Made by a program: the position numbers and the translations under genes | The notes under the pieces: generated by a model | Told to the model about the DNA's origin: nothing | The model's input: only the letters and a program-made list of their open reading frames with translations | Databases searched by the model: none | Origin: Gammaproteobacteria bacterium | Lineage (GTDB): Bacteria > Pseudomonadota > Gammaproteobacteria > GCA-001735895 | DNA: 64,000 nt | Direction: 5' to 3' | Assembly: GCA_029862005.1 (NCBI GenBank) | Contig: JAOTYD010000009.1 | Span: 1 to 64,000 of the forward strand | In this document: piece after piece, positions 29,508-60,544 of the stretch | How the letters are laid out: every line of letters begins with the position of its first letter | Numbering within the stretch: position 1 is the stretch's first letter

Positions 29508-31385
29508 TTAACGGGTTTCTGTGTAATCGGCATCGACTACTTTGCCGCGGGGACCCGCACCGGAGGGTTTGGCTTCACCACCGGCGCCACTCATGTCGGG
29601 TGCCGCCTGGTGTGCGTAGGGGCCCGACTTGGGTGCTTCCGAACTTTGCGAATAAATCACGGTACCGGCTTCCTTGATAACTTCTTCGAGTTCCTGTGCG
29701 CGCTGGCTGGCTTGTACGGCGTCTTTTTTATCGATCGCTTCTCGTGTTTGATGCATGCCGCTTTGCAGGCGATTTTTCATTTCGTCGGTCAACTTGTCGC
29801 TGAACTCGGCCAGTATCTTTTCAGCCTGGTAGCAAATATTGTCCGCATTGTTAAGTTTGTCGACCTGTTCGCGTCGTATTTTGTCTTCGTCGGCATATTT
29901 TTCGGCTTCATCGATCTGACGTTGTTTTTCTTCATCGCTTAATCGAGTGGAGCCGGTGATGCGGATCGATTGCGATTTTCCGGTGGCCTGATCCTTGGCG
30001 GTAACATTTAAAATACCGTTGGCGTCAATATCGAAGGTGACGTCGACTTTCGGAATACCCCGGGGTGCCGGCGGTAAACCATCGAGGTTGAATTCGCCGA
30101 GGCTGGTATTGTCACGCGCCATCGGTCTTTCACCCTGGTAAATGTGGACCGTGACTGCTGTCTGCATGTCTGCCGCGGTAGTAAAGGTTTCGGTATGCTT
30201 TACCGGAATCGGCGAATTACGCGAAATCAGGGCAGTCGCGACACCGCCCAGGGTTTCTACGCCGAGGGTCAGCGGTGTGACGTCGACCAGCACGATGTCG
30301 CTAACTTCGCCGCTCAAAACACCGGCCTGTATTGCGGCTCCGCTGGCGACGCATTCCATCGGATCGACGCCCATTTCGGCTTTACGTCCAAACAGGTCTT
30401 CAAAATACTTGTGCACTACCGGCATACGTGTCGGTCCACCGACGAATACAATTCGGTCAATTTCCTGGGCGCTAACGCCGGCATCGTGCAGCGCCTGTTC
30501 GATTGGACCTCGGCACTTCTCTACGACGTCATTAACCTGCCGTTCCAACTCGGTACGGTTTAAATCCAGTTCGAGATGCTTCGGTTCTCCCGCTACGGCG
30601 GTCAGATAAGGCAGGCTGATATGGGTGGTAGTGCTGGTTGAGAGTTCTATTTTCGCGATTTCAGCGGCTTCCCTGATACGTGCCATCGCTTTTACGTCTG
30701 ATCTTATATCGTTCCCGGTTTCCTGGTTAAATTTATCGGTAATGTAATTGACCAGGTTTTGATCCATGTCCGTACCGCCGAGTTGGGTATCTCCGCTGGT
30801 CGCTTTGACTTCAAATACGCCCTTACCAAACTCCATGATGGTGACATCCAGGGTGCCACCACCAAAGTCGATGACGGCGATACGCAATTCTTCACCTGCA
30901 CGATCAAGTCCGTAGGCCAGCGACGCGGCGGTGGGTTCGTTGACCAGGCGCTCGACTTCGAGACCCGCGATACGGCAAGCATCCTTAGTTGCGCTGCGCT
31001 GGTTATCGTCAAAATAGGCGGGCACCGTGACGACCGCCTTGGTAACTGGCTCACCGAGAAAGGCTTCCGCGTCATCCTTGATTTTTTTCAACAGGAAGGC
31101 GGATAACTGTTCAGGAGAGAATTTTTTGTCACGTAAAGTAATTTCTTCGCGTTGCCCCATACGCCGTTTGAAAGCTGACGTCGTGCCTTCCGGGTTGGCA
31201 GCCTGCTGGCGCCGTGCCGGCTCTCCGACCAGCGTTTGTCCATCTGCTGTTATTGCCACGTAGCTGGGAAATGCTTTACCCCCGAGACTGATGCCTTCTG
31301 CGCTTGGAATGATGACTGGCCGGCCACCCCGGAGTACGGCGGCAGCTGAATTTGACGTGCCCAGATCTATACCGATGATTGCCAT
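29508..31385 (-). CDS. dnaK: DnaK-type Hsp70 chaperone, divergent copy
   Basis: Hsp70 of 625 residues: nucleotide-binding domain from [20 protein letters not shown] to about 370, linker [19 protein letters not shown], substrate-binding domain, and lid ending [10 protein letters not shown]. The phosphate loop reads DLGTSNS where E. coli-type DnaK has DLGTTNS, and the strand after it lacks the usual SCVA. The linker ([14 protein letters not shown]) also resembles non-gammaproteobacterial DnaK proteins. No grpE lies next to it. The operon is dnaK-dnaJ. These points suggest an accessory or horizontally acquired pair. A perfect FNR box lies 127 bp upstream. Confidence 0.88.
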
Positions 31386-48388: not shown

Positions 48389-49114
48389 ATGAAACTGCAT
48401 AACATCAAGATCGTCATGGTCGGTACGACCCATCCTGGAAACATCGGTGCCGCTGCCAGGGCCATGAACAACATGTGCTTCAGTCACCTCAGCCTGGTAG
48501 ATCCGCAGTGCCCGATCGGGGAGACGGCTTATGCCAGGGCCTCGGGTGCCAACGGCATACTCGACAAACGCGAAACCTGCAGCGATCTGTCCCAGGCGAT
48601 TGAGGATTGTAGCCTCGTGGTTGCGGCCAGTGCTCGTCGACGCTCGCTTCCGTGGCCCGAGCTTAGCCCGGCGGAACTGGCGGTTAAGCTGGATTCAATG
48701 GCTGATTCAAACCACGCAGCGCTGGTGTTCGGACGCGAACATTCAGGCCTGACCAACGAGGAAATCCAGGTATGTAATCAGATGGTCTGCATTCCAGCGA
48801 ATCCGGAATTCAGCTCACTTAATCTGGCTTCGGCGATCCAGATTCTGTGTTACGAGATCTATGCTCGCCTGGGCAATACAATGCCGCCCGCAAAAGCGCC
48901 GGATGCCCATGATTTACCGGCGCCAAATGCCGAGGTCGAAGGTTACATCCAGCATTTGGAGAAAACTTTGAAAGGCTGCGGGTATCTCGATCCTGGCCAA
49001 CCGGGCATGATTATGCAGCGCCTGCGACGCCTTTATCTGCGTAGCGAACTGACCCGCAACGAGATAAATATCTTACGCGGCATGCTGACGGCAATAGAAA
49101 AACAGCAAATCTGA
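48389..49114 (+). CDS. trmJ: tRNA (cytidine/uridine-32-2'-O)-methyltransferase TrmJ
   Basis: SPOUT-class methyltransferase of 241 residues that modifies the anticodon loop at position 32. Typical motifs: VGTTHPGNIGAAARAMNNM at the N terminus, and the knot sequences LVFGREHSGLTNEE and CIPANPEFSSLNLASAIQIL that bind S-adenosylmethionine. In many relatives trmJ directly precedes iscR; here a Spy-like protein and a two-component system lie between them. Confidence 0.93.
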   Translation: MKLHNIKIVMVGTTHPGNIGAAARAMNNMCFSHLSLVDPQCPIGETAYARASGANGILDKRETCSDLSQAIEDCSLVVAASARRRSLPWPELSPAELAVKLDSMADSNHAALVFGREHSGLTNEEIQVCNQMVCIPANPEFSSLNLASAIQILCYEIYARLGNTMPPAKAPDAHDLPAPNAEVEGYIQHLEKTLKGCGYLDPGQPGMIMQRLRRLYLRSELTRNEINILRGMLTAIEKQQI

Positions 49115-49116
49115 AT

Positions 49117-49179
49117 GTTACAAATCGTTACAAAACGTTACCCGGCTGAAAAGCTTTGTAACAGGCGATTCCCTAGAAT
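49117..49179 (+). promoter_or_regulatory. Tandem GTTAC repeats and -10 upstream of the Spy-like gene
   Basis: GTTAC occurs at 49117, 49127 and 49137, exactly 10 bp apart, and once inverted as GTAAC at 49158-49162. Read on the other strand this is GTAAC-N5-GTAAC-N5-GTAAC, one base from the CpxR consensus GTAAA-N5-GTAAA. A TAGAAT -10 lies at 49174-49179, without a good -35, as expected for an activator-dependent promoter. The adjacent response regulator is the obvious candidate. Confidence 0.6.
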
Positions 49180-49213
49180 TTTCTCCGTCACTAATCAACT
49201 ACGGAGACAATCC

Positions 49214-49675
49214 ATGAAACTTTCTACAAAAATTATTACTGCAGTATTGCTTATCGCCGGCAGTTCGGGCGTGGTTTACGCATTCAGTAAACATGGCGAC
49301 TGGGGCATGTCCCCCGAAGAAAAGGTCGAGTTCCTGACCGATCGCGTCACCAAAAAGCTGGAACTCGACCGCGGGCAACAGGAAAACTTCACCCGGCTGG
49401 CACAGATGGTGGCTCAACTGATGATGGATGCCAGGGCTACCAGGGCACAGCATGTTAGCGAAATCGAAGCGCTGCTGGAGGAACCCAGTTTTAATCAGGC
49501 AAGGGCGCTTGAACTGGTGCAGCAAAAAATACTGATGGTCAACGAAAAAGCGCCCCTCGTTATTGCTTCGCTGGCGGTATTCCTGGATTCCCTGAGCGCT
49601 GAACAAAAACAGGAGTTGCAGGGCTTTCTCGAACACCGTCACAAGCACCATCACCGGTATGGGGGCGATGAGTAA
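49214..49675 (+). CDS. Spy/CpxP-like periplasmic protein
   Basis: A 153-residue exported protein. The start is the ATG after CGGAGACAATCC; it gives a signal peptide (MKLSTKIITAVLLIAGSSGV, cleavage near VYA/F). The mature protein is all-helical with a LSAEQKQEL segment like the LTxxQ motif of Spy/CpxP, and ends in a His-rich tail (HRHKHHHRY) that may bind metal. Upstream of a CpxR/CpxA-like pair, it is probably the feedback inhibitor or chaperone of that system. Confidence 0.8.
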   Translation: MKLSTKIITAVLLIAGSSGVVYAFSKHGDWGMSPEEKVEFLTDRVTKKLELDRGQQENFTRLAQMVAQLMMDARATRAQHVSEIEALLEEPSFNQARALELVQQKILMVNEKAPLVIASLAVFLDSLSAEQKQELQGFLEHRHKHHHRYGGDE

Positions 49676-49693
49676 TCCTGCCCCTAGATCGCG

Positions 49694-49720
49694 ACGCGGC
49701 TGCTCGAAGAGTAGCCGCGT
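49694..49720 (+). terminator. Stem-loop between the Spy-like and response-regulator genes
   Basis: ACGCGGCTGCTC and GAGTAGCCGCGT form a 12-bp stem with one G-U pair and a GAA loop. No T-run follows, so it may be an attenuator or mRNA-stability element that sets higher Spy-like than kinase expression, not a full intrinsic terminator. Confidence 0.5.
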
Positions 49721-49757
49721 TGTACAATGACTGCCTGCTAGCAACCCGGGCCTGTAG

Positions 49758-50423
49758 ATGCGTAAATTATTACTGATCGATGACGACGAAGGACTGGCTG
49801 AGCCGTTGCAAAAGTATCTTGCGAAATTCGATATGTCGTTAGATAACGAAATCCAGCCGTTAAAGGCGATCGAACGTATCAGGCAGCAACCCTATGACCT
49901 GGTGGTACTGGATGTCATGTTGCCGCAGATCGACGGATTCGAAACCTGCCGTCGCATACGCCATTTCAGCGATATTCCAATCTTGATGCTGACCGCGCGT
50001 GGCGAAGTAATGGACCGGGTTGTCGGACTGGAACTGGGGGCCGATGACTACCTGCCGAAGCCGTTTGAACCGCGTGAACTGGTGGCGAGAATTCAGAATA
50101 TCTTCAAGCGCGGTAAAGCAACGGCATCCGGGACTGTTTACACGGTCGGCGAATTTCGTATCGATCTGGACAAGAAACACCTCACGCGTAATGGCGAAGC
50201 GGTGGCGATCACGGCGACCGAATTCGGTTTACTGAGCTTGCTCGCGGAGAACCAGGACCGTGTCTTGTCCCGCGATGAAATCATGCAGGTACTGCGCGGT
50301 CTTGATGCCGACATATACAGTCGTGCCATCGATGTCCTGGTGAGCCGGCTCAGGCAGAAGCTGCAGCGTCCTGAATTGATACGCACGGTGCGTGGACAGG
50401 GCTATCAACTCGTGAATCGCTAA
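49758..50423 (+). CDS. OmpR/CpxR-family response regulator
   Basis: A 221-residue regulator: receiver domain with phospho-Asp in LVVLDVMLP and Lys in PKPFEPRELVARI, then an OmpR-type winged helix ending ELIRTVRGQGYQLVN. It resembles CpxR. Its stop codon overlaps the start of the kinase gene, so the two are coupled. The repeated GTTAC sites upstream of the Spy-like gene are its probable targets. Confidence 0.9.
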   Translation: MRKLLLIDDDEGLAEPLQKYLAKFDMSLDNEIQPLKAIERIRQQPYDLVVLDVMLPQIDGFETCRRIRHFSDIPILMLTARGEVMDRVVGLELGADDYLPKPFEPRELVARIQNIFKRGKATASGTVYTVGEFRIDLDKKHLTRNGEAVAITATEFGLLSLLAENQDRVLSRDEIMQVLRGLDADIYSRAIDVLVSRLRQKLQRPELIRTVRGQGYQLVNR

Positions 50424-51727
50424 TGTGGTCCTATTTACAGGCTCGATGGCAAAGCCTGATTTTCAGGCTTTTATTTTATTTCCTGGTTTCAATGCTGGCA
50501 CTTGCCGTTATTCTGGGGATCAGTTTCGCCCAGCGGATTAAGCCCCACGTGCAGAATGAAATCCTTCCCAACGTGGAGCGTTATATCGAGTACCTCATTG
50601 AGGATATTGGAAATCCGCCTGACCTGGCAACTGCTCAGCAGCTCGCCGAGCAGTTGCCATTCGAAATCCGTATCGAAGGGCAGGGGATCGACTGGAGTTC
50701 GAGCCCGGGACTGAAAGCCATTGCTGTCTATGAATTCGAGCCGGCCCCACGGCCCTACGACAACGTGTATCTGAGCCATCATCGGCGCGACCAGTTCCTG
50801 TTGATTCAAAAGCAGGACTATCGATACCTGTTTTCTGTCGACAACGGCTTTCGACGTGGGTCTGAACGACGACACTGGGTACTGTTCCTGTTGCTCGGCT
50901 CGATTCTGCTGTTCCTGTATTTTGTCATTCGACGCATGTTCAGGCCGATAGAAGCGATGTCACGACAGGTCAAAAAAATTGGCGAGGGTGACCTCGAACA
51001 GAGAATCGAAACCGGGGGAAAGGGTGAGCTCGAACTGCTGGCAGCAGGGATTAACGATATGTCGGAACAGATCAAGGCGATGCTCGAGGGTAAATCGGCC
51101 CTGTTGCTCGCCATCAGTCACGAACTGCGCTCACCCATTACCCGTATGCGTGTCAACCTCGAGCTGCTCGAACCCGACGAGGTTCAGCAAAAATTAATCG
51201 ATGATCTGCGTGAAATGGAAACACTGATTGCGTCAATACTCGAATCAGAAAAGCTGAATTCCGGGCATGCTCCACTAGCACTGGAACGCTGCGATATGTC
51301 GAGCCTGATCGAAGAAGTGATAAAGGATCATCCCTGTCGGGAGCGCATTAGAACCCGTATGAATCCGATCGAGGTCAGGGTAGATCCGATGCGGATAAAG
51401 CTGTTGATCAAGAACCTGGTTGACAACGCCTGTCAACACGCAGGCGAAGACCGGGCAGATATCAATATAAACCTGTCCCTGGAGCAGGGGATGGTAAGAC
51501 TGGAGGTGCAAGACCATGGCCCTGGCCTGGACCCAGGGGATATTCCAAGGCTTACCGAGGCGTTTTACCGTCCCGACAGCTCGAGGCAAAGAAATACCGG
51601 GGGTTACGGCCTGGGGCTATATCTTTGCAAGCTTATTGTCGATGCGCATGCGGGGCAGATTACGATTGAAAGCGAGCCCGGAAATGGTACCGGAGTAATA
51701 GTCATACTACCCATTGATAATAGTTGA
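50423..51727 (+). CDS. CpxA/RstB-like sensor histidine kinase
   Basis: A 434-residue inner-membrane kinase. One N-terminal membrane segment (LLFYFLVSMLALAVILGISF) and a second at about 155-170 (WVLFLLLGSILLFLYFVI) enclose a periplasmic sensor of about 110 residues. HAMP, the phospho-acceptor His (LLLAISHELRSPITRMRVNL), and an ATPase domain with GGYGLGLYLCKLI follow. The Spy-like protein nearby may bind its periplasmic domain, as CpxP does CpxA. Confidence 0.9.
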   Translation: MWSYLQARWQSLIFRLLFYFLVSMLALAVILGISFAQRIKPHVQNEILPNVERYIEYLIEDIGNPPDLATAQQLAEQLPFEIRIEGQGIDWSSSPGLKAIAVYEFEPAPRPYDNVYLSHHRRDQFLLIQKQDYRYLFSVDNGFRRGSERRHWVLFLLLGSILLFLYFVIRRMFRPIEAMSRQVKKIGEGDLEQRIETGGKGELELLAAGINDMSEQIKAMLEGKSALLLAISHELRSPITRMRVNLELLEPDEVQQKLIDDLREMETLIASILESEKLNSGHAPLALERCDMSSLIEEVIKDHPCRERIRTRMNPIEVRVDPMRIKLLIKNLVDNACQHAGEDRADININLSLEQGMVRLEVQDHGPGLDPGDIPRLTEAFYRPDSSRQRNTGGYGLGLYLCKLIVDAHAGQITIESEPGNGTGVIVILPIDNS

Positions 51728-51751
51728 CCATTTTAGTCAGGATTGTATACT
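51720..51751 (+). promoter_or_regulatory. iscR promoter overlapped by a type-1-like IscR box
   Basis: A sigma-70 promoter is clear: TTGACC (51724-51729), 16-nt spacer, TATACT (51746-51751), each hexamer one base from consensus. Positions 51720-51744 match the E. coli type-1 IscR motif at about 22 of 25 positions, including the GAC and AGTC cores (ATAGTTGACC then ATTTTAGTCAGG). The box covers the -35 and spacer, so binding would repress. It begins over the stop region of the kinase gene. Confidence 0.75.
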
Positions 51752-51780: not shown

Positions 51781-52239
51781 ATGCGACTATCCACTAAAAG
51801 CCGATATGCGGTGACATCACTGCTCGACCTGGTTATGCATTCCGACCAGGGTCCGGTTTCGCTTGCCGACATATCGGTTCGACAGGGTATTTCCCTCTCT
51901 TACCTCGAACAACTGTTCGCCAAGATGCGCCGTAATAAACTGGTTGTCAGTACCCGCGGACCCGGTGGCGGTTACAGCTTGGGTAGTTCTCCGGACCAGG
52001 TTTGTATTGCTGATGTCATCAGTGCGGTTGACGAGGAAGTGCAGGTTGTCGACAAAGGTGTTACCGGGGGTTCGGCAAGTTACGAACCCTGTCTGACCGA
52101 ACAACTGTGGGAAGAGCTCAGTGCCGAAATCGAAAATTACCTGACCAAGATCTCGCTGGCTGACATGATGCAGAATGACGAGGTGCAGGCGCTGTCTCGC
52201 GCCCACGATCTGCGACAGAAGCGACATAACCTGATCTAA
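51781..52239 (+). CDS. iscR: IscR-like Rrf2 regulator lacking three of four [2Fe-2S] ligands
   Basis: A 152-residue Rrf2 protein, colinear with E. coli IscR without gaps through residue 107. The DNA-binding half is well kept (GISLSYLEQLFAKMRRNKLV, RGPGGGYSLG). The cluster loop reads DKGVTGGSASYEPCLTE: C92 is Lys, C98 is Ser, H107 is Glu, and only C104 remains. One extra Cys lies at 75. A classical [2Fe-2S] cluster therefore seems impossible, so it may act as a constitutive apo-form or use another signal. A longer frame starting at TTG 51760 is ruled out because it would begin only 2-3 nt after the expected transcription start. First gene of the isc operon. Confidence 0.88.
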   Translation: MRLSTKSRYAVTSLLDLVMHSDQGPVSLADISVRQGISLSYLEQLFAKMRRNKLVVSTRGPGGGYSLGSSPDQVCIADVISAVDEEVQVVDKGVTGGSASYEPCLTEQLWEELSAEIENYLTKISLADMMQNDEVQALSRAHDLRQKRHNLI

Positions 52240-52243
52240 AGCC

Positions 52244-53392
52244 ATGGCCATCTACCTCGACCATAATGCAACGTCGCCTATGCATCCAGAAGTGGCCGAT
52301 GCGATGATGCCTTTCCTGCGTAACCCGACTGGAAATCCGTCGAGCCTGCATAGTTTCGGGCGTATGGCGCGCTCGGCCGTCGAATCCGCGCGTGCTGAAG
52401 TAGCAAATTTACTGGGTTGCTCGAGTGATGCCGTCATTTTCACGTCCGGTGGCACCGAAGCCAACAACATGTTGCTCAAAGGTTATGTAGACCGGACCAG
52501 TGAACGTCCTGTCGTCAGCAGTGAAATAGAACACCCGAGTATCCTCGAACCCCTCAGACAGTTGCAGGCCGACGGCCAGGCAGTGGTGCTGTTAAAACCG
52601 GATTACGATGGATTGATCGATCTTGCCGCAGCTGACAAGGCGTTATCTGATGCAAATGCACAGTTACTTACGATCATATACGCTAACAATGAAACCGGGG
52701 TTATTCAGCCAGTCAAGGAATTGGCCGCGATGGTCGATCGTGATTCCTGCCTGGTACATAGCGATGCAACCCAGGCCGTCGGCAAGATTCCCATCGATAT
52801 GGCACAGATCGATATCGATGCAATCAGCTTTTCCGCACATAAGCTGCGCGGACCGCAGGGCGTGGGAGCCCTGGTGGTAAATCGCAAACCGAGGAACGTG
52901 CTGATCAGCGGCGGTTACCAGGAAAACAGGTTGCGCGGTGGTACCGAAAATGTCGCCGGCATTGTCGGCCTGGGCAAGGCAGCCCAGGTTGCCAGGCTTG
53001 AAATGGCGCACAAGAAGCACCATCTTGAACAGCTGAGGGATGTTTTTGAAGCAAAGCTGGAAATCATCCCGGGTAGCGTGGTTTTTGGACAGCAGGAGCC
53101 ACGGTTACCGAATACGACTTTTTTCGCGTTGCCTTACTATCACGGAGAGACTCTGCTGATGGAACTGGATCGAGCCGGTTTTGCCCTTTCCAGCGGGTCT
53201 GCCTGCCACAGTGCGGTGACTAAACCCAGTCACGTTCTGACCGCCATGGGCGTCGATGACGGCCTGGCTCTGAATGCGATCAGGGTGAGTTTCGGCATGG
53301 ACAACAGCCTGCAGGATGTTGAAATGTTAGTGACTAAACTCCAGGAACTGGTAAACCAGTTGCCTGCTGTTATCCGCCAGGTAGCGGTGTAG
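52244..53392 (+). CDS. iscS: Cysteine desulfurase (IscS/NifS class, short form)
   Basis: PLP enzyme of 382 residues that takes sulfur from cysteine for cluster assembly. PLP Lys200 lies in [12 protein letters not shown]; the persulfide Cys321 is in [15 protein letters not shown]. True IscS proteins have SACTSASLEPSY here and about 20 more residues at the C terminus, the part that docks IscU. This protein ends at [10 protein letters not shown]. It is thus a group I desulfurase that may not be an orthologue of IscS. It begins 4 nt after iscR. The next gene is iscA, not iscU. Confidence 0.88.
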
Positions 53393-53402
53393 AGAGATTT
53401 TA

Positions 53403-53726
53403 ATGGCGATTCATATTAGCGATATAGCAGCCTCACGAGTGCAGCATTTTCTTGCTAACCGCGGCAAGGGTATCGGCTTGCGACTCGGTGTCAAAACGAC
53501 AGGTTGCTCGGGTCTCGCCTATGTCATCGAATTTGTCGATGAGCTCCAGGATGACGATGAAGTCTTCGAAACCAAGGGCGTTAAGGTAGTCGTGGATAAA
53601 AAGAGCCTTGTTTTTCTTGATGGCACGGAAGTTGATTTTGCCAAAGTGGGTCTCAACGAGGGATTCCAGTTTAAAAATCCTAACGCCAAGAATGCCTGTG
53701 GTTGTGGTGAGAGCTTTACCGTTTAA
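53403..53726 (+). CDS. iscA: Iron-sulfur carrier protein IscA
   Basis: A-type carrier of 107 residues. The three ligating cysteines are at 35 (TTGCSGLAY), 99 and 101 (ACGCGESF), the same numbering as in E. coli IscA. It accepts and transfers clusters to apo-proteins. It begins 10 nt after the desulfurase, in the place where iscU would normally come first. It does not have IscU features (no LPPVK, no N-terminal C-G-D). Confidence 0.95.
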
Positions 53727-53743
53727 ACTAAGCCGCCGCTTCC

Positions 53744-54283
53744 ATGCAGTCCCCTGATTTTAGCCAGACCTACTTCGAGCTATTCGGCCTCGAACCTGCG
53801 TTCGATCTCGATGCCAGGGATTTACAGGCTGAACAACAGCGTCTGCAAGCGACCTACCACCCGGATAGATTTATCGGTGCCGATGACCGGGATAAGCGGT
53901 TGTCGACGCAAATAGCATCCTGGGTAAACCAGGCCTATGAAACGCTGCAGGACCCGGTCAAACGTTCGCGCTATCTGCTCGAAATCAGCGGCGCCACTAT
54001 CCCCGACGACTCGAGTACCACGTCGGATACCGAGTTTTTGATGGAGCAGATCGAATTGCGAGAAGAAGTTGAATCCTGTCGGCATGGCGATGATCCATTA
54101 CAGCAGTGCCAGCAGATTGAGTCGAAGCTGGCACACAGGGCCAGCGAACTCGCAACCGAGTTCGTCACGCATTTCGAATCGCGCGATCTCGATGCGGCAT
54201 TGTTAAGCAGCCGCAAGATGCAGTTTATTCAGCGGATTCAGCACCAGTTGTCCGAACTCCAGTTCGAGTTGGAGGATCACTGA
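53744..54283 (+). CDS. hscB: Co-chaperone HscB
   Basis: J-domain protein of 179 residues with the HPD motif in ATYHPDRF and a C-terminal three-helix part (ELREEVESC onward, ending [11 protein letters not shown]). In E. coli it brings IscU to HscA. It overlaps the hscA start by 1 nt (TGATG). Its normal client, IscU, is not encoded in this operon. Confidence 0.93.
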
Positions 54284-56154
54284 TGGCCTTGCTGCAGATA
54301 TCCGAACCCGGTGGATCCAGCGCACCACATCAGCACCGTAACTCGGTCGGCATCGATCTGGGCACCACGAATTCACTGGTGGCGACCGTGCGCAGCGGAG
54401 AGGCGGTATGCCTGGCCGATGGAGAGGAACGCAGCCTGCTGCCGTCGGTCGTCCATTTTGGCGACCAGGAAATCCTCACTGGCCACCAGGCATTGTCCTT
54501 GCAGACCCTTGATCCGCTAAATACCGTTTCCTCGATAAAAAGAATGATGGGTAGAGGACGGGAAGACGTCAGCCAGCTCGGTAGTTCCGTGCCTTATCAA
54601 TTCGTGGTCAGCGAAGAAAGTAATGTTCCGAGGATCCGAACCCGAAGCGGCGATTTCAGTGCGGTCGAAATTTCGAGCGAAATTCTAAAAACATTGTCCC
54701 GTCGCGCGGTTCAGAGCACGGGTGGAGATCTCGATGGCGTCGTTATCACCGTGCCTGCTTATTTCGATGATGCCCAGCGTCAGGCGACGCGCGATGCGGC
54801 GAAACTAGCCGGCCTGAACCTGTTCCGGTTATTAAACGAACCGACCGCAGCGGCGGTGGCCTACGGACTGGATCAGCAAAACGATGGATTGATCGCGGTT
54901 TATGATCTCGGTGGTGGCACCTTCGATATATCGATATTGCGACTTAACAAGGGTGTATTCGAGGTTCTTGCTACCGGGGGTGATTCATCGCTCGGCGGAG
55001 ACGATATGGATCATGCGCTGGGTGAGTGGATAATCGAGCAGGGCGGCTTCACCGGTATCGATGCAGGTCTCGCCCGGAGAATCCTGTTCGCGGCGCGCAC
55101 TGCGAAAGAGGCACTTTCGGGCGCCGACTCCGCTGAAATTGTCATCGACCATGAGGGACAGCATTGGAGCGGTGTTGTCGATCGAGACTTGTTCGAAACC
55201 CTGATTGATCCCCTGGTAAAAAGAACACTGAGCGCTTGCCGACGTGCGGTGCGAGATGCCGGAATTTCGAAACACGATATCGGTGAAGTTGTCATGGTCG
55301 GCGGATCTACCCGGGTGCCATTGGTGCAGTTAATGGTAGGCGATTATTTTGAACGCAAGCCGATGTGTGATCTCGATCCTGACCAGGTGGTTGCGCTCGG
55401 TGCCGCAATTCAGGCGGATATACTGGCAGGCAATAAGCCTGGCAGCGATATGCTGTTACTTGATGTACTACCGCTGTCCCTGGGGATAGAGACCATGGGT
55501 GGCCTGAGCGAAAAGATAATCCATCGTAATTCACCGATTCCGGTGACCCGGGCACAGGAGTTCACAACCTTCAAGGATGGTCAGACCGCGATGTCAATTC
55601 ACGTGGTCCAGGGTGAACGCGAACTGGTTTCTGACTGTCGGTCATTGGCGCATTTCGAGTTACGTGGATTTCCACCGATGAATGCTGGTGCCGCCCGCAT
55701 CCGTGTGACCTACCAGGTAGATGCCGATGGCCTGATGTCTGTGACGGCCGAGGAACTCACCAGCGGAGTTGCCGCAGATATCGTGGTCAAACCTTCTTAT
55801 GGCTTGACCGACACTGAGATCGAATCGATGCTGCGGGACTCGATGGATCATGCCCGTGAGGATATCATGCAACGTATGCTCAGGGAGGAACAGGTCGAAG
55901 CCAGAAGGGTGATTGAAGCGATTGATGCCGCGTTGGCACAGGACGGGGAGATCCTGCTGAGCGAAGCCGAAATCGCGCAAATCCGGCAGCACAGGGACGC
56001 ACTCGATACGGTTATCGATACGGCACCGGCAGACGAACTGAAGCAATTGATCAAGGCGATAGAGGATGCGAGTGAATCTTTTGTTGCGAAACGCATGAAC
56101 GCGAGCGTAAAACAGGTGCTCACCGGTAAACAAATTGACGAGGTTGATGTTTGA
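54283..56154 (+). CDS. hscA: Hsp70-class chaperone HscA
   Basis: Specialised Hsp70 of 623 residues (E. coli 616). Nucleotide-binding domain starts [20 protein letters not shown]; the linker is [17 protein letters not shown]; the substrate domain follows. It uses ATP to release clusters from IscU by binding an LPPVK peptide. Whether it has another client here is open, because iscU is absent. It overlaps fdx by 1 nt (TGATG). Confidence 0.95.
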
Positions 56155-56492
56155 TGACCAAGGTCACCATACTACCCCATGAGGAAATTTGCCCCGAGGG
56201 TGCAGATATAGAGGTGGAACCCGGTATCAGCTTATGCGATGCGATGTTGAGCAACGGTATCGAGATTGAGCATGCCTGTGAAAAATCCTGCGCCTGCACA
56301 ACTTGCCATGTATACGTGCGCGAGGGTTTTAATTCGCTCGAAGAATCCAGTGAAGATGAAGATGACTATCTCGACAAGGCCTGGGGGCTGGACATGGATT
56401 CGCGCCTGAGTTGCCAGGCAATCGTCGCAGATGAACCATTGACTATCGAGATACCGAAATACACCATCAACATGGTGTCCGAAAATCACTAG
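56154..56492 (+). CDS. fdx: [2Fe-2S] ferredoxin of the Isc system
   Basis: Adrenodoxin-type ferredoxin of 112 residues. The cluster ligands are in HACEKSCACTTCHVYV (C-x5-C-x2-C) with the fourth in RLSCQAIV. It gives electrons for cluster assembly. The acidic stretch LEESSEDEDDYLD is typical. A TTG one codon earlier is possible, but the ATG overlapping the hscA stop is preferred. Confidence 0.95.
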   Translation: MTKVTILPHEEICPEGADIEVEPGISLCDAMLSNGIEIEHACEKSCACTTCHVYVREGFNSLEESSEDEDDYLDKAWGLDMDSRLSCQAIVADEPLTIEIPKYTINMVSENH

Positions 56493-56501
56493 GAGCAAAT
56501 C

Positions 56502-56702
56502 ATGAGTCTTAAGTGGACCGATACACTGGATATAGCCATTGAACTGGCCGAGACACATACCGATGTTGATCCGCAGTATGTACGTTTTACCGACCTCCAC
56601 GCATGGGTCTGCGCGCTTGAAGATTTTGATGATGATCCCAATCATTCGAATGAAAAGATCCTTGAGGCCATCCAGATGGCCTGGATCGAAGAGGCTGATT
56701 GA
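56502..56702 (+). CDS. iscX: Fe-S assembly protein IscX
   Basis: Acidic protein of 66 residues, the same length as E. coli IscX/YfhJ. It has the family pattern [20 protein letters not shown] and ends [10 protein letters not shown]. IscX binds IscS and modulates its rate or carries iron. Last gene of the isc operon, 9 nt after fdx. Confidence 0.95.
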
Positions 56703-57093: not shown

Positions 57094-57972
57094 ATGAGTA
57101 ACGTAGCATACATCAGTGAAGTTGCGGCTGAACGGCAAACCTACGCTAGGGAATCCCAGTTAAAAACCTACTACGATACCAGAAACCGGATTATCTGGCT
57201 TCTGATGAAGGGCGCACCACGCCCGGCGTTCACGTTAAAGCTGCTGAACGAAATTACTAGTCAAATCAAGACCGTTCAGCAGGACATGGCGGAAAGCGAT
57301 GGCGAAAAATACGATTTTCTCGTCCTCGGTTCCGACATCGAAGGCGTATTCAATCTGGGCGGCGATCTCGACCAGTTCTGCCAGTATATCCGTAATCGCG
57401 ACAGGGACGGGCTGCTCAGATATGCGAAGCTTAGTATCGATCTCGTGTATCAAAACCTGGTCCATTTTGGCGCGGATATGAAGAGCATTTCGCTGATACA
57501 GGGCGATGCGCTGGGCGGCGGTTTCGAAGCGGCGTTTTCCGCCAACATCGTGGTAGCCGAGCGCGGCACCAAATGTGGATTGCCCGAGGTTCTTTTCAAT
57601 ATGTTCCCCGGCATGGGCGCCTTTTCGATTCTGTCGAGAAAGATCGGTTTCGCCGCGGCGGAAAAGATGATCATGAGCGGCGGCGTCTACAGCGCGGAAA
57701 AACTCTACGATATGGGTCTGGTTGACATACTGGCGGAAAAAGGCGAGGGCGAGGTCGCGATATACCAGTATATCAAGTCCACCCAACGATCGAATAACGC
57801 CTATCGCTCGATGCAGCAGGTCAAGGATATCTGTAACCAGGTAAGCTATCAGGAATTGATAGATATCGGGACAGTATGGGCCGATGCGGCGCTTAAACTC
57901 AGCGAGAAGGATCTACGCATGATGCAGCGCCTGGTCCGCCGGCAGAACAACCGCATGCAGGAAAGCGTCTAG
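57094..57972 (+). CDS. rpfF: DSF synthase, RpfF-like enoyl-CoA hydratase/thioesterase
   Basis: Crotonase-fold enzyme of 292 residues that makes diffusible-signal-factor fatty acids from acyl-ACP. It has VFNLGGDLDQFCQYIR, GDALGGGFEAAFSANIVVAE and GLPEVLFNMFPGMGAFS, all characteristic of RpfF. The two catalytic glutamates E145 and E165 match E141 and E161 of Xanthomonas RpfF. A strong Shine-Dalgarno (GGAGAGAAG) precedes the ATG. It converges on an RpfC-like kinase with only 4 nt between the stop codons, and rpfG follows, completing a DSF synthesis and sensing locus. Confidence 0.92.
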   Translation: MSNVAYISEVAAERQTYARESQLKTYYDTRNRIIWLLMKGAPRPAFTLKLLNEITSQIKTVQQDMAESDGEKYDFLVLGSDIEGVFNLGGDLDQFCQYIRNRDRDGLLRYAKLSIDLVYQNLVHFGADMKSISLIQGDALGGGFEAAFSANIVVAERGTKCGLPEVLFNMFPGMGAFSILSRKIGFAAAEKMIMSGGVYSAEKLYDMGLVDILAEKGEGEVAIYQYIKSTQRSNNAYRSMQQVKDICNQVSYQELIDIGTVWADAALKLSEKDLRMMQRLVRRQNNRMQESV

Positions 57973-57976
57973 CAGG

Positions 57977-60544
57977 CTAGCGCTCAGGTAATTTCTTCGA
58001 ATATATGTTGTCTTCTTCGACCGTCGCTGCATTGTTCAATGCAGCGACGGTCCTTTCAAAAACTTCCGCGATCTGCTCGCTCATCTGCTTGATCTTTTTG
58101 CTGCCCATATCGTAGGGCTTTAATGCTTCCCCTCCCAGGCATACCTCTACCAGCCGGTTGGCACCCAGTTCGGTCGCCGAGCCCTTGAGCGCATGCAGAT
58201 GTTCGCGGTACTCGAGGTAGTCGTCATACATGGATTTCTTGATGTCCAGCACGTGCTGCGCGCCTTCCTTCTCGAAATTATTTAGCAGCGTTTTGATGAA
58301 ATCAGGATCATCGCCGAGTACGTCGAGTTCGTGCAAAATGATATTGTCGAACCATTCGGACTCGTTGTAGTTGCTGCGTAACTGGGTCCTGGATTCCCGA
58401 GGCGCGGGTTTTTCCATTGTCTTGGCTTTGCGGGTATTTTTCGACAGCGAAGCAATACACTCGAGAAGTCCGCGGGCGTCGATCGGCTTGGTGAGGAACC
58501 GGTTCGCACCGGCAGCCAGTGACTTCTCGCGGGCATCGGGCGTGGCGTCGGCGGTCAGCATGATGACCGGTAACTGACCGCCGGTATCCATGAAGCGCAG
58601 CGACTGCACCACCTCGACACCCGAGACTTCGGGCATGTTCATGTCGAGGATGAGCATGTCGATCTGGTCCAGTTCATCGGACAGTATATCCAGAGCTTTT
58701 TCACCAGTATCGGCGATGCGCACGTTATGGCCCGCGTTGCGCAGGATGCCGTTGATGACCTGCTGGTTCACCTGGTTGTCTTCCGCGACCAGGATATTCA
58801 ACGTCGATACACCGGCCTGCTTGGCGTAATGCTCGGCCATAGTGACGATCTTGCTGTCGTTCAAGTTCACGCTCTGCGCCGCGTGCAATGCGTTGAACAG
58901 GAGTCGTTTCTCTTCGGGATTAGCGATTGTCGATATGTAGTAATGGTTCGAACGGTTGGCGTCGATCATGGTATCGGACGAATTGATCAACACCATGGAA
59001 GTATTTTCCAGTAAACCCTCGGACTTCACCATTTGCGCGAACTGCACTGCGTTGATATCGATCAGGCAGTCCTGGTCGACCACAATCGTCTCGTAGGGAT
59101 TGTCGTCATCGTCCGCCTGGATCATCTGCGACAGGGCGCGGCTCGAGGTGCGTACCCAGTCGAAATTGGCTTGCCATTGTTTGAGCGCAGGTCTGATCAC
59201 GCTGGCGGTATCCTCACCTGACAGCAGCAATACGTGGTTTTCGGAAATACTGATTTCCGGGTTGGTGCTCGCCAGGAACGGAAGTTCGAACCAGAAAGTG
59301 GAACCCTTTCCGACCTCGCTGACGACGCCGACTTCACCGTGCATCAACTCGACCAGTTCCTTCGATATCGTTGTTCCGAGCCCGGTGCCGTCGAATGTTC
59401 GACTGGTGCCGGCGTCGGCCTGGGTGAAATCGTCGAAGATCTTGCCGAGGTCCTCCTCGGCGATGCCGATGCCGGTATCGACGATTTCGAAACGAATCCG
59501 CGGTGCCGACACAGTGCCCCCGATTAACCCCACCGACAGGATCACCGAACCCCTCTCGGTAAACTTGATCGCGTTATTAACCAGGTTGATGAGCACCTGG
59601 CGCAGATGTTGCTGATCGCCCTTGAGCGCGAACGGGGTTTCCGGATCGAAATTACAGGACACCGTTAAATTCTTTTTTTCGCCCATCGGCGCAAGCATGA
59701 AAATCACCGAGTTGACAAGCCCGTGCAGGTCGAAATCCCTGGATTCGATGATGATCTTGCCGGCCTCGATCTTGGCTATATCGAGCACGTTCTCGATCAG
59801 TTCCAGCAACGTGTTGGCCGAATTGTGCATCGTGTTGACGAGTTCCTGCTGTTCGTTGTTCAGCTTGGTTTCGCGCAGCAGATCACCCATGCCGATGACG
59901 CCGTTCAGCGGTGTTCTGAGTTCGTGTGACATGTTGGCGAGAAAGCGGCTCTTGGCCTCGTTGGCCTGCTTGGCCATGTCCACCGCGGCGTGCAGTTTCT
60001 TGATCAGGAAACTGGCGTAAATCGGCAACAGGCAAATTGTCAGTAGCAGGCTGACACCGAAGATGTGGTGTTGTTGCCAATAGTCGCCCCAGATGACGAC
60101 CGCGGAAAAGCCGAGAATGGCGATGGCCTGTGAAATGTAGAGATTGGTGAGGCCGTAGCGAAAGCCGTTGCCGAGGATAACCCAGGGATAAATCACGAAA
60201 AATAGCACAGTTTCGGCACCAGAGTGGTACATCAGCCACGACAGCAGACCCATGTCCAGCACTGCGCCGCAAATCCGTCTGAACTGCGATGGCACTGGCT
60301 TAATGACAATTGCGGTAAAAATCGCCAGAGCAGACGTGTAATAGATAATGCACATCAGCCCCACCAGCGAAGTGAGCGTATTGACGAAGGTTTCGCCCTG
60401 GTTCCAGGGGATAAAGACGTAACCAATTACGATGAAACTGATCGCGAGTCTCAGCTTGGCCTGTTCTGGTTCAGAGTCGCCGGTGCCTTTTAGTCTTCTG
60501 TTTAATCGACCAAAAAAACTGGAATTTATTTCAGTGGAGGCCAT
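57977..60544 (-). CDS. rpfC: RpfC-like hybrid sensor histidine kinase
   Basis: Membrane hybrid kinase of 855 residues. About five membrane segments (residues 30-185) form the sensor, then the phospho-acceptor His207 (NMSHELRTPLNGVIGMGD), an ATPase domain with FDGTGLGTTISKELVELMHG, a receiver domain (AEDNQVNQQV, phospho-Asp in MLILDMNMPE), and a C-terminal HPt domain (HLHALKGSATELGANRL). This is the exact order of Xanthomonas RpfC, the DSF receptor. It is 21 nt downstream of rpfG on the same strand. Extra degenerate receiver-like sequence lies at about 430-550. Confidence 0.9.
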   Translation of the reverse strand: MASTEINSSFFGRLNRRLKGTGDSEPEQAKLRLAISFIVIGYVFIPWNQGETFVNTLTSLVGLMCIIYYTSALAIFTAIVIKPVPSQFRRICGAVLDMGLLSWLMYHSGAETVLFFVIYPWVILGNGFRYGLTNLYISQAIAILGFSAVVIWGDYWQQHHIFGVSLLLTICLLPIYASFLIKKLHAAVDMAKQANEAKSRFLANMSHELRTPLNGVIGMGDLLRETKLNNEQQELVNTMHNSANTLLELIENVLDIAKIEAGKIIIESRDFDLHGLVNSVIFMLAPMGEKKNLTVSCNFDPETPFALKGDQQHLRQVLINLVNNAIKFTERGSVILSVGLIGGTVSAPRIRFEIVDTGIGIAEEDLGKIFDDFTQADAGTSRTFDGTGLGTTISKELVELMHGEVGVVSEVGKGSTFWFELPFLASTNPEISISENHVLLLSGEDTASVIRPALKQWQANFDWVRTSSRALSQMIQADDDDNPYETIVVDQDCLIDINAVQFAQMVKSEGLLENTSMVLINSSDTMIDANRSNHYYISTIANPEEKRLLFNALHAAQSVNLNDSKIVTMAEHYAKQAGVSTLNILVAEDNQVNQQVINGILRNAGHNVRIADTGEKALDILSDELDQIDMLILDMNMPEVSGVEVVQSLRFMDTGGQLPVIMLTADATPDAREKSLAAGANRFLTKPIDARGLLECIASLSKNTRKAKTMEKPAPRESRTQLRSNYNESEWFDNIILHELDVLGDDPDFIKTLLNNFEKEGAQHVLDIKKSMYDDYLEYREHLHALKGSATELGANRLVEVCLGGEALKPYDMGSKKIKQMSEQIAEVFERTVAALNNAATVEEDNIYSKKLPER

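Follow-up and report, generated by a model that had tools for sequence, protein, structure and literature searches.

The genes of the ISC system for Fe-S cluster assembly are usually, though not necessarily, united in a single iscRSUA-hscBA-fdx operon. In E. coli, the C-terminal segment of the desulfurase IscS is required for IscU binding (PMC2854127). An extra IscS-type desulfurase beside iscR is known from the isc-suf operons of Rhodobacter (PMC6956336), and the IscR of R. sphaeroides, which has a single Cys, binds a cluster (PMC4618611). The isc genes considered here are distributed over two loci, and a literature search, conducted mostly outside subscription papers, found no description of a split isc operon or of paired IscR paralogues.

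The stretch of DNA that we analyzed (the window; 64,000 nucleotides of a gammaproteobacterial draft genome) contains iscR2-iscS2-iscA-hscB-hscA-fdx-iscX, in this order, at 51781-56702, with all genes on the plus strand and iscU absent. The initial annotation had described an isc operon without the scaffold gene, and this holds: the desulfurase stop is at 53392, iscA starts at 53403, and only 10 nt (53393-53402, plus strand) remain at the site that is occupied by iscU, or by iscS1-iscU, in unsplit operons. The operon opens with an Rrf2/IscR paralogue gene, iscR2 (51781-52239), whose product scores 169.8 bits against an NCBIfam IscR cut-off of 207.55, and a second cysteine desulfurase gene, iscS2 (52244-53392; 382 aa), whose product scores 317 bits against an IscS cut-off of 643. 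The remaining genes were all assigned by NCBIfam, and the ISC components HscB, HscA, Fdx, and IscA are all among them: the A-type carrier gene iscA (53403-53726; C35, C99, and C101), the co-chaperone gene hscB (53744-54283; HPD motif), hscA for the Hsp70-type chaperone specific for IscU (54283-56154), fdx for the ISC [2Fe-2S] ferredoxin (56151-56492), and iscX (56502-56702). Because trmJ (48389-49114, plus strand) is kept upstream, as it is in E. coli, where trmJ also precedes iscR, the window operon appears to mark the ancestral isc position, from which the iscS1-iscU pair was lost.

The surroundings of the operon contain further genes. The interval between trmJ and iscR2 (49115-51727, plus strand) encodes a small CpxP/LTXXQ-like protein as well as a histidine kinase paired with a response regulator, and the position of this histidine kinase upstream of iscR2 is kept in most same-genus relatives. 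On the other side lies a crotonase related to the DSF synthase RpfF (57094-57972, plus strand; 253 bits, under the curated cut-off of 550), which adjoins the isc genes in the majority of same-genus relatives, and end to end with it a hybrid histidine kinase with HisKA-HATPase-REC-Hpt architecture (57977-60544, minus strand), the two genes together resembling an rpfF/rpfC signalling pair.

The draft genome to which the window belongs (3.99 Mb in 105 contigs, 97% complete) contains a single PF01592 match, an IscU encoded at 92922-93293 of another contig, C10. Its gene is the last of an iscR1-iscS1-iscU operon (L002, 15048-12920, minus strand), a short distance downstream of sdhA and sdhB. This IscU is identical to that of E. 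coli at 103 of 125 positions (82%), exceeds the TIGR01999 cut-off, and has both the HscA-binding LPPVK motif and the cluster residues C36, D38, C62, and C105. IscS1 is identical to E. coli IscS at 311 of 404 positions, C-terminal docking tail included, and exceeds both IscS cut-offs. CyaY and three A-type protein matches were also found in this genome, as was one HscA over the cut-off; a further DnaK-family protein is encoded in the window (29673-31376, minus strand; 626-aa open frame, 493 bits to the HscA model), and a DnaK on contig C25. Neither the SufB/SufD core (PF01458) nor NifU, SufU, or any second PF01592 protein was matched in the 105-contig, 97% complete draft. ISC is the only Fe-S assembly system that we found in this genome, and its scaffold is an ordinary one, since canonical IscU and IscS1 are present and the SUF core is absent.

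The initial annotation had offered two explanations for the missing gene: iscU elsewhere in the genome, or another protein (IscA, or one of the NifU/SufU type) serving as the scaffold on which HscA and HscB act. The first was correct, and the finding of a normal iscU, HscA-binding motif included, reduces the case, as the annotation itself had anticipated, to a rearrangement. The second would be compatible with the retention of HscA and HscB in an operon without iscU and with the existence of A-type proteins; but the IscA of the operon is an ordinary A-type carrier, and whole-genome PF01592 and PF01458 searches for a substitute returned one canonical IscU, accompanied by a canonical docking IscS1, and no SUF core. 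We therefore rejected a replacement scaffold, which is now very improbable. Judged by its gene content, the Fe-S pathway is complete and simply split into two operons. Of an ordinary ISC, the window operon would be the half that encodes chaperones and carriers, with the scaffold encoded in the iscR1-iscS1-iscU operon elsewhere, and we assign this reading a probability of about 0.93.

Comparison with close relatives, which the initial annotation had proposed, revealed that the split extends across the family. A family member besides the genome studied here was scorable if it had both an IscU and an HscA that exceeded the cut-off. In 26 of 26 such genomes the two proteins are encoded separately, either on different contigs or, in G029, roughly 407 kb from each other on the same contig. 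Direct reading of loci showed iscS2 joined to iscA with no iscU between them in 18 relatives, and iscR1-iscS1-iscU elsewhere in 13. These data also bear on the possibility that iscU had been dropped from the contig by misassembly. This would be conceivable in a metagenome-type draft, but the same junction recurs in 18 independently assembled relatives and is thus not an assembly artefact, and one relative (G029) carries both half-operons 407 kb apart within a single 1.9-Mb contig. An assembly or annotation gap was consequently ruled out, with a residual probability close to nil, and the split is a conserved family trait.

The window desulfurase was reported in the initial annotation to lack the tail that docks IscU, and this was borne out. 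IscS2 has no equivalents of E. coli IscS residues 387-404, within the docking tail at 376-404, and in the region that contacts IscU it deviates at E309, A316, and E347. Its catalytic set is kept (C321, the PLP lysine K200, and H97), which identifies it as a NifS/IscS-type cysteine desulfurase, while its score, its missing tail, and its position in the tree place it outside the IscS subfamily. In a desulfurase tree of 170 rows, IscS2 falls into an iscR-adjacent clade apart from IscS1 with 99% support. Members of this clade lie between iscR and iscS in the unsplit operons of Zoogloea, Sulfuricella, Denitromonas, and two genomes of the same class (G036 and G045), and in further proteobacterial operons they follow iscR without iscS1-iscU. 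We had considered IscS2 as a truncated IscS, and this was excluded by the tree and by the occurrence of its relatives upstream of an intact iscS in other bacteria. As a separate paralogue rather than a modified IscS, the tail-less IscS2 provides no argument for a changed scaffold. It is unlikely to dock IscU in the established manner.

The window regulator has also diverged from its counterpart. IscR2 matches PF02082 (Rrf2 fold) and conserves S40, E43, and R59, but at the [2Fe-2S] ligand positions 92, 98, 104, and 107, where E. coli has C, C, C, and H, it reads K, S, C, and E. The loss of C92, C98, and H107 (now Glu) and the retention of C104 are common to the window protein and all orthologues read, whereas all four ligands are kept by IscR1 and by essentially all canonical isc-operon IscRs read from Gamma- and Betaproteobacteria. 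Conservation is concentrated in the DNA-binding half: IscR2 and IscR1 share 51 identities in residues 1-80 and only 22 of 70 aligned positions beyond. Since three of the four ligands are lost, we propose that regulation by IscR2 probably requires no classical [2Fe-2S] cluster, or else that the protein holds a cluster through its single Cys as in Rhodobacter. We withdrew the label "cluster-free" for IscR2, because the R. sphaeroides protein binds its cluster through one Cys (PMC4618611).

The promoters of the two half-operons carry a common element. A 25-bp type-1-like IscR box (51720-51744, plus strand) overlaps the -35 hexamer of a promoter-like pair upstream of iscR2 (TTGACC at 51724-51729 and TATACT ending at 51751). 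It is the only match in the 64 kb, at three mismatches or fewer, to what we take to be the type-1 consensus of E. coli (0.00 matches expected), and the same consensus recovers the E. coli iscR promoter box with one mismatch. Boxes with four mismatches or fewer precede iscR2 in 21 of 21 family loci and iscR1 in 16 of 17, compared with 1 of 6000 upstream regions in a shuffled control; in the genome studied here, the counterpart of the window box lies at 95061-95085 of contig C10. When these boxes were condensed into a 20-nt pattern, a circular design that nevertheless indicates specificity, the genome matched it perfectly only at the two half-operons. Because the boxes are conserved before both operons, the two halves are probably still one IscR regulon, as inferred from these sites.

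One could also imagine two partly independent ISC modules, in which IscS2 together with IscA, HscBA, and Fdx is specialized for stress or particular clients under IscR2, and IscR1-IscS1-IscU does the housekeeping. Each half has its own regulator, the sensor region of IscR2 has diverged, and IscS2 has kept its catalytic residues and, in almost every family member, its place in the operon. Against this, the genome has only one HscA over the cut-off, the known client of HscA is IscU, the IscR box is common to both promoters, and in one relative of the same genus (G014) iscS2 has been lost from the operon, which runs directly from iscR2 to iscA. We consider such modules rather improbable. At the G014 locus (L077), iscR2 and iscA are about 115 nt apart.

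A neutral fission of the operon without regulatory meaning, with IscR2 as a decaying duplicate, deserves more weight and is a possible explanation, though not the one we favor. It agrees with the recurrence of iscU/hscA separation, in differing ways, in several gammaproteobacterial families; yet IscR2 is uniform in all orthologues read, with positions 92, 98, and 107 lost and C104 and the DNA-binding half kept, and both IscR boxes are conserved. This uniformity and the conserved boxes argue for selection.

Under our preferred reading of one ISC pathway divided between two operons, the cluster would be built by IscS1-IscU, and the HscB/HscA, IscA, Fdx, and IscX of the window operon would act in trans on this IscU. 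Cluster-loaded IscR1 would repress both operons via their boxes and thereby hold them in one regulon, and IscS2, a member of the group encoded ahead of iscS in unsplit operons, would serve as an accessory desulfurase. As the likeliest origin, we speculate that an ancestral trmJ-iscR-iscS2-iscS1-iscU-iscA-hscBA-fdx-iscX arrangement lost iscS1-iscU at the old site, and that another copy of iscR-iscS1-iscU was retained elsewhere.

We surveyed 114 gammaproteobacterial genomes, one per family, and compared the coordinates of iscU and hscA in the 42 with an HscA over the cut-off. The two genes lie within a few kb of each other in 34 (G120 was settled by reading contigs), one genome (G075) falls into neither class, and in seven (G000, G095, G100, G123, G140, G144, and G145) they are separate; this 7 of 42 counts families with a split and not independent events, as the IscR trees have long branches and IscR and IscU are short. 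In the single-contig genome G123, about 1.8 Mb lie between the iscU and hscA loci. In G095, G100, G123, and G144, as well as in G057 and G058 (Thiohalobacter sp.), iscS1 is still part of the hsc operon but iscU is not, and iscU directly follows an Rrf2/IscR-like gene without cluster cysteines; the cassettes of regulator and relocated iscU are loci L228 (G095), L230 (G100), L224 (G123), L226 (G144), L211 (G057), and L212 (G058). Type-1-like IscR boxes were seen upstream of the cassettes in G058, G095, and G123. A split between iscU and hscBA is thus a recurrent arrangement, and it repeatedly comes with an IscR paralogue, poor in cluster ligands, in one of the two units. Whether this amounts to a general pattern is more speculative; we tentatively suggest that IscU may have been uncoupled repeatedly from the HscBA operon in Gammaproteobacteria, with one unit in several lineages placed under an IscR paralogue without the classical ligands. 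If so, the supply of scaffold and the supply of chaperones and carriers would answer different signals, and only one of the regulators would sense cluster status in the usual way.

These results correct the tempting inference of an ISC system without a scaffold and show that annotation from the neighbourhood alone can overlook a relocated iscU. They also describe a natural case in which one pathway is encoded by two operons with a shared regulatory box and one IscR copy has lost cluster ligands, which may be of use for studying how the tasks of sensing and of binding promoters are shared out among IscR paralogues in ISC-only organisms.

Compared with the iscRSUA-hscBA-fdx-iscX operon of E. coli, the protein set, the hscB-hscA-fdx-iscX order, the upstream trmJ, and the IscR box in the promoter are alike; here, however, iscS1-iscU lie in a second operon with its own iscR, iscS2 stands in their place, IscR2 lacks three ligands, and the genome has no SUF system, which E. 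coli has as well. The unsplit trmJ-iscR-iscS2-iscS-iscU-iscA-hscBA-fdx-iscX operons of Beta- and Gammaproteobacteria (Zoogloea, Sulfuricella, Denitromonas, G036, and G045) agree in gene order and in having an IscS2 relative right after iscR, but iscS1-iscU are gone from the window operon. The isc-suf operons of Rhodobacter (PMC4618611, PMC6956336) share the iscR-iscS start and the extra desulfurase, and their IscR resembles IscR2 in the number of Cys, with just one in its C-terminal part (PMC4618611); they encode SufBCD and no IscU, whereas the genome studied here encodes a complete ISC, HscBA included, as well as another IscR that has all four ligands. A further counterpart is the iscR-(iscS2)-iscS1-iscA-hscBA-fdx-iscX arrangement of Thiohalobacter sp. 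(G058), G057, G095, G100, G123, and G144, where iscU likewise lies elsewhere beside an IscR-like regulator. In that arrangement only iscU has moved and the ligand-less regulator goes with it, whereas in the family of the window iscS1 has moved too and the ligand-poor regulator has remained with hscBA.
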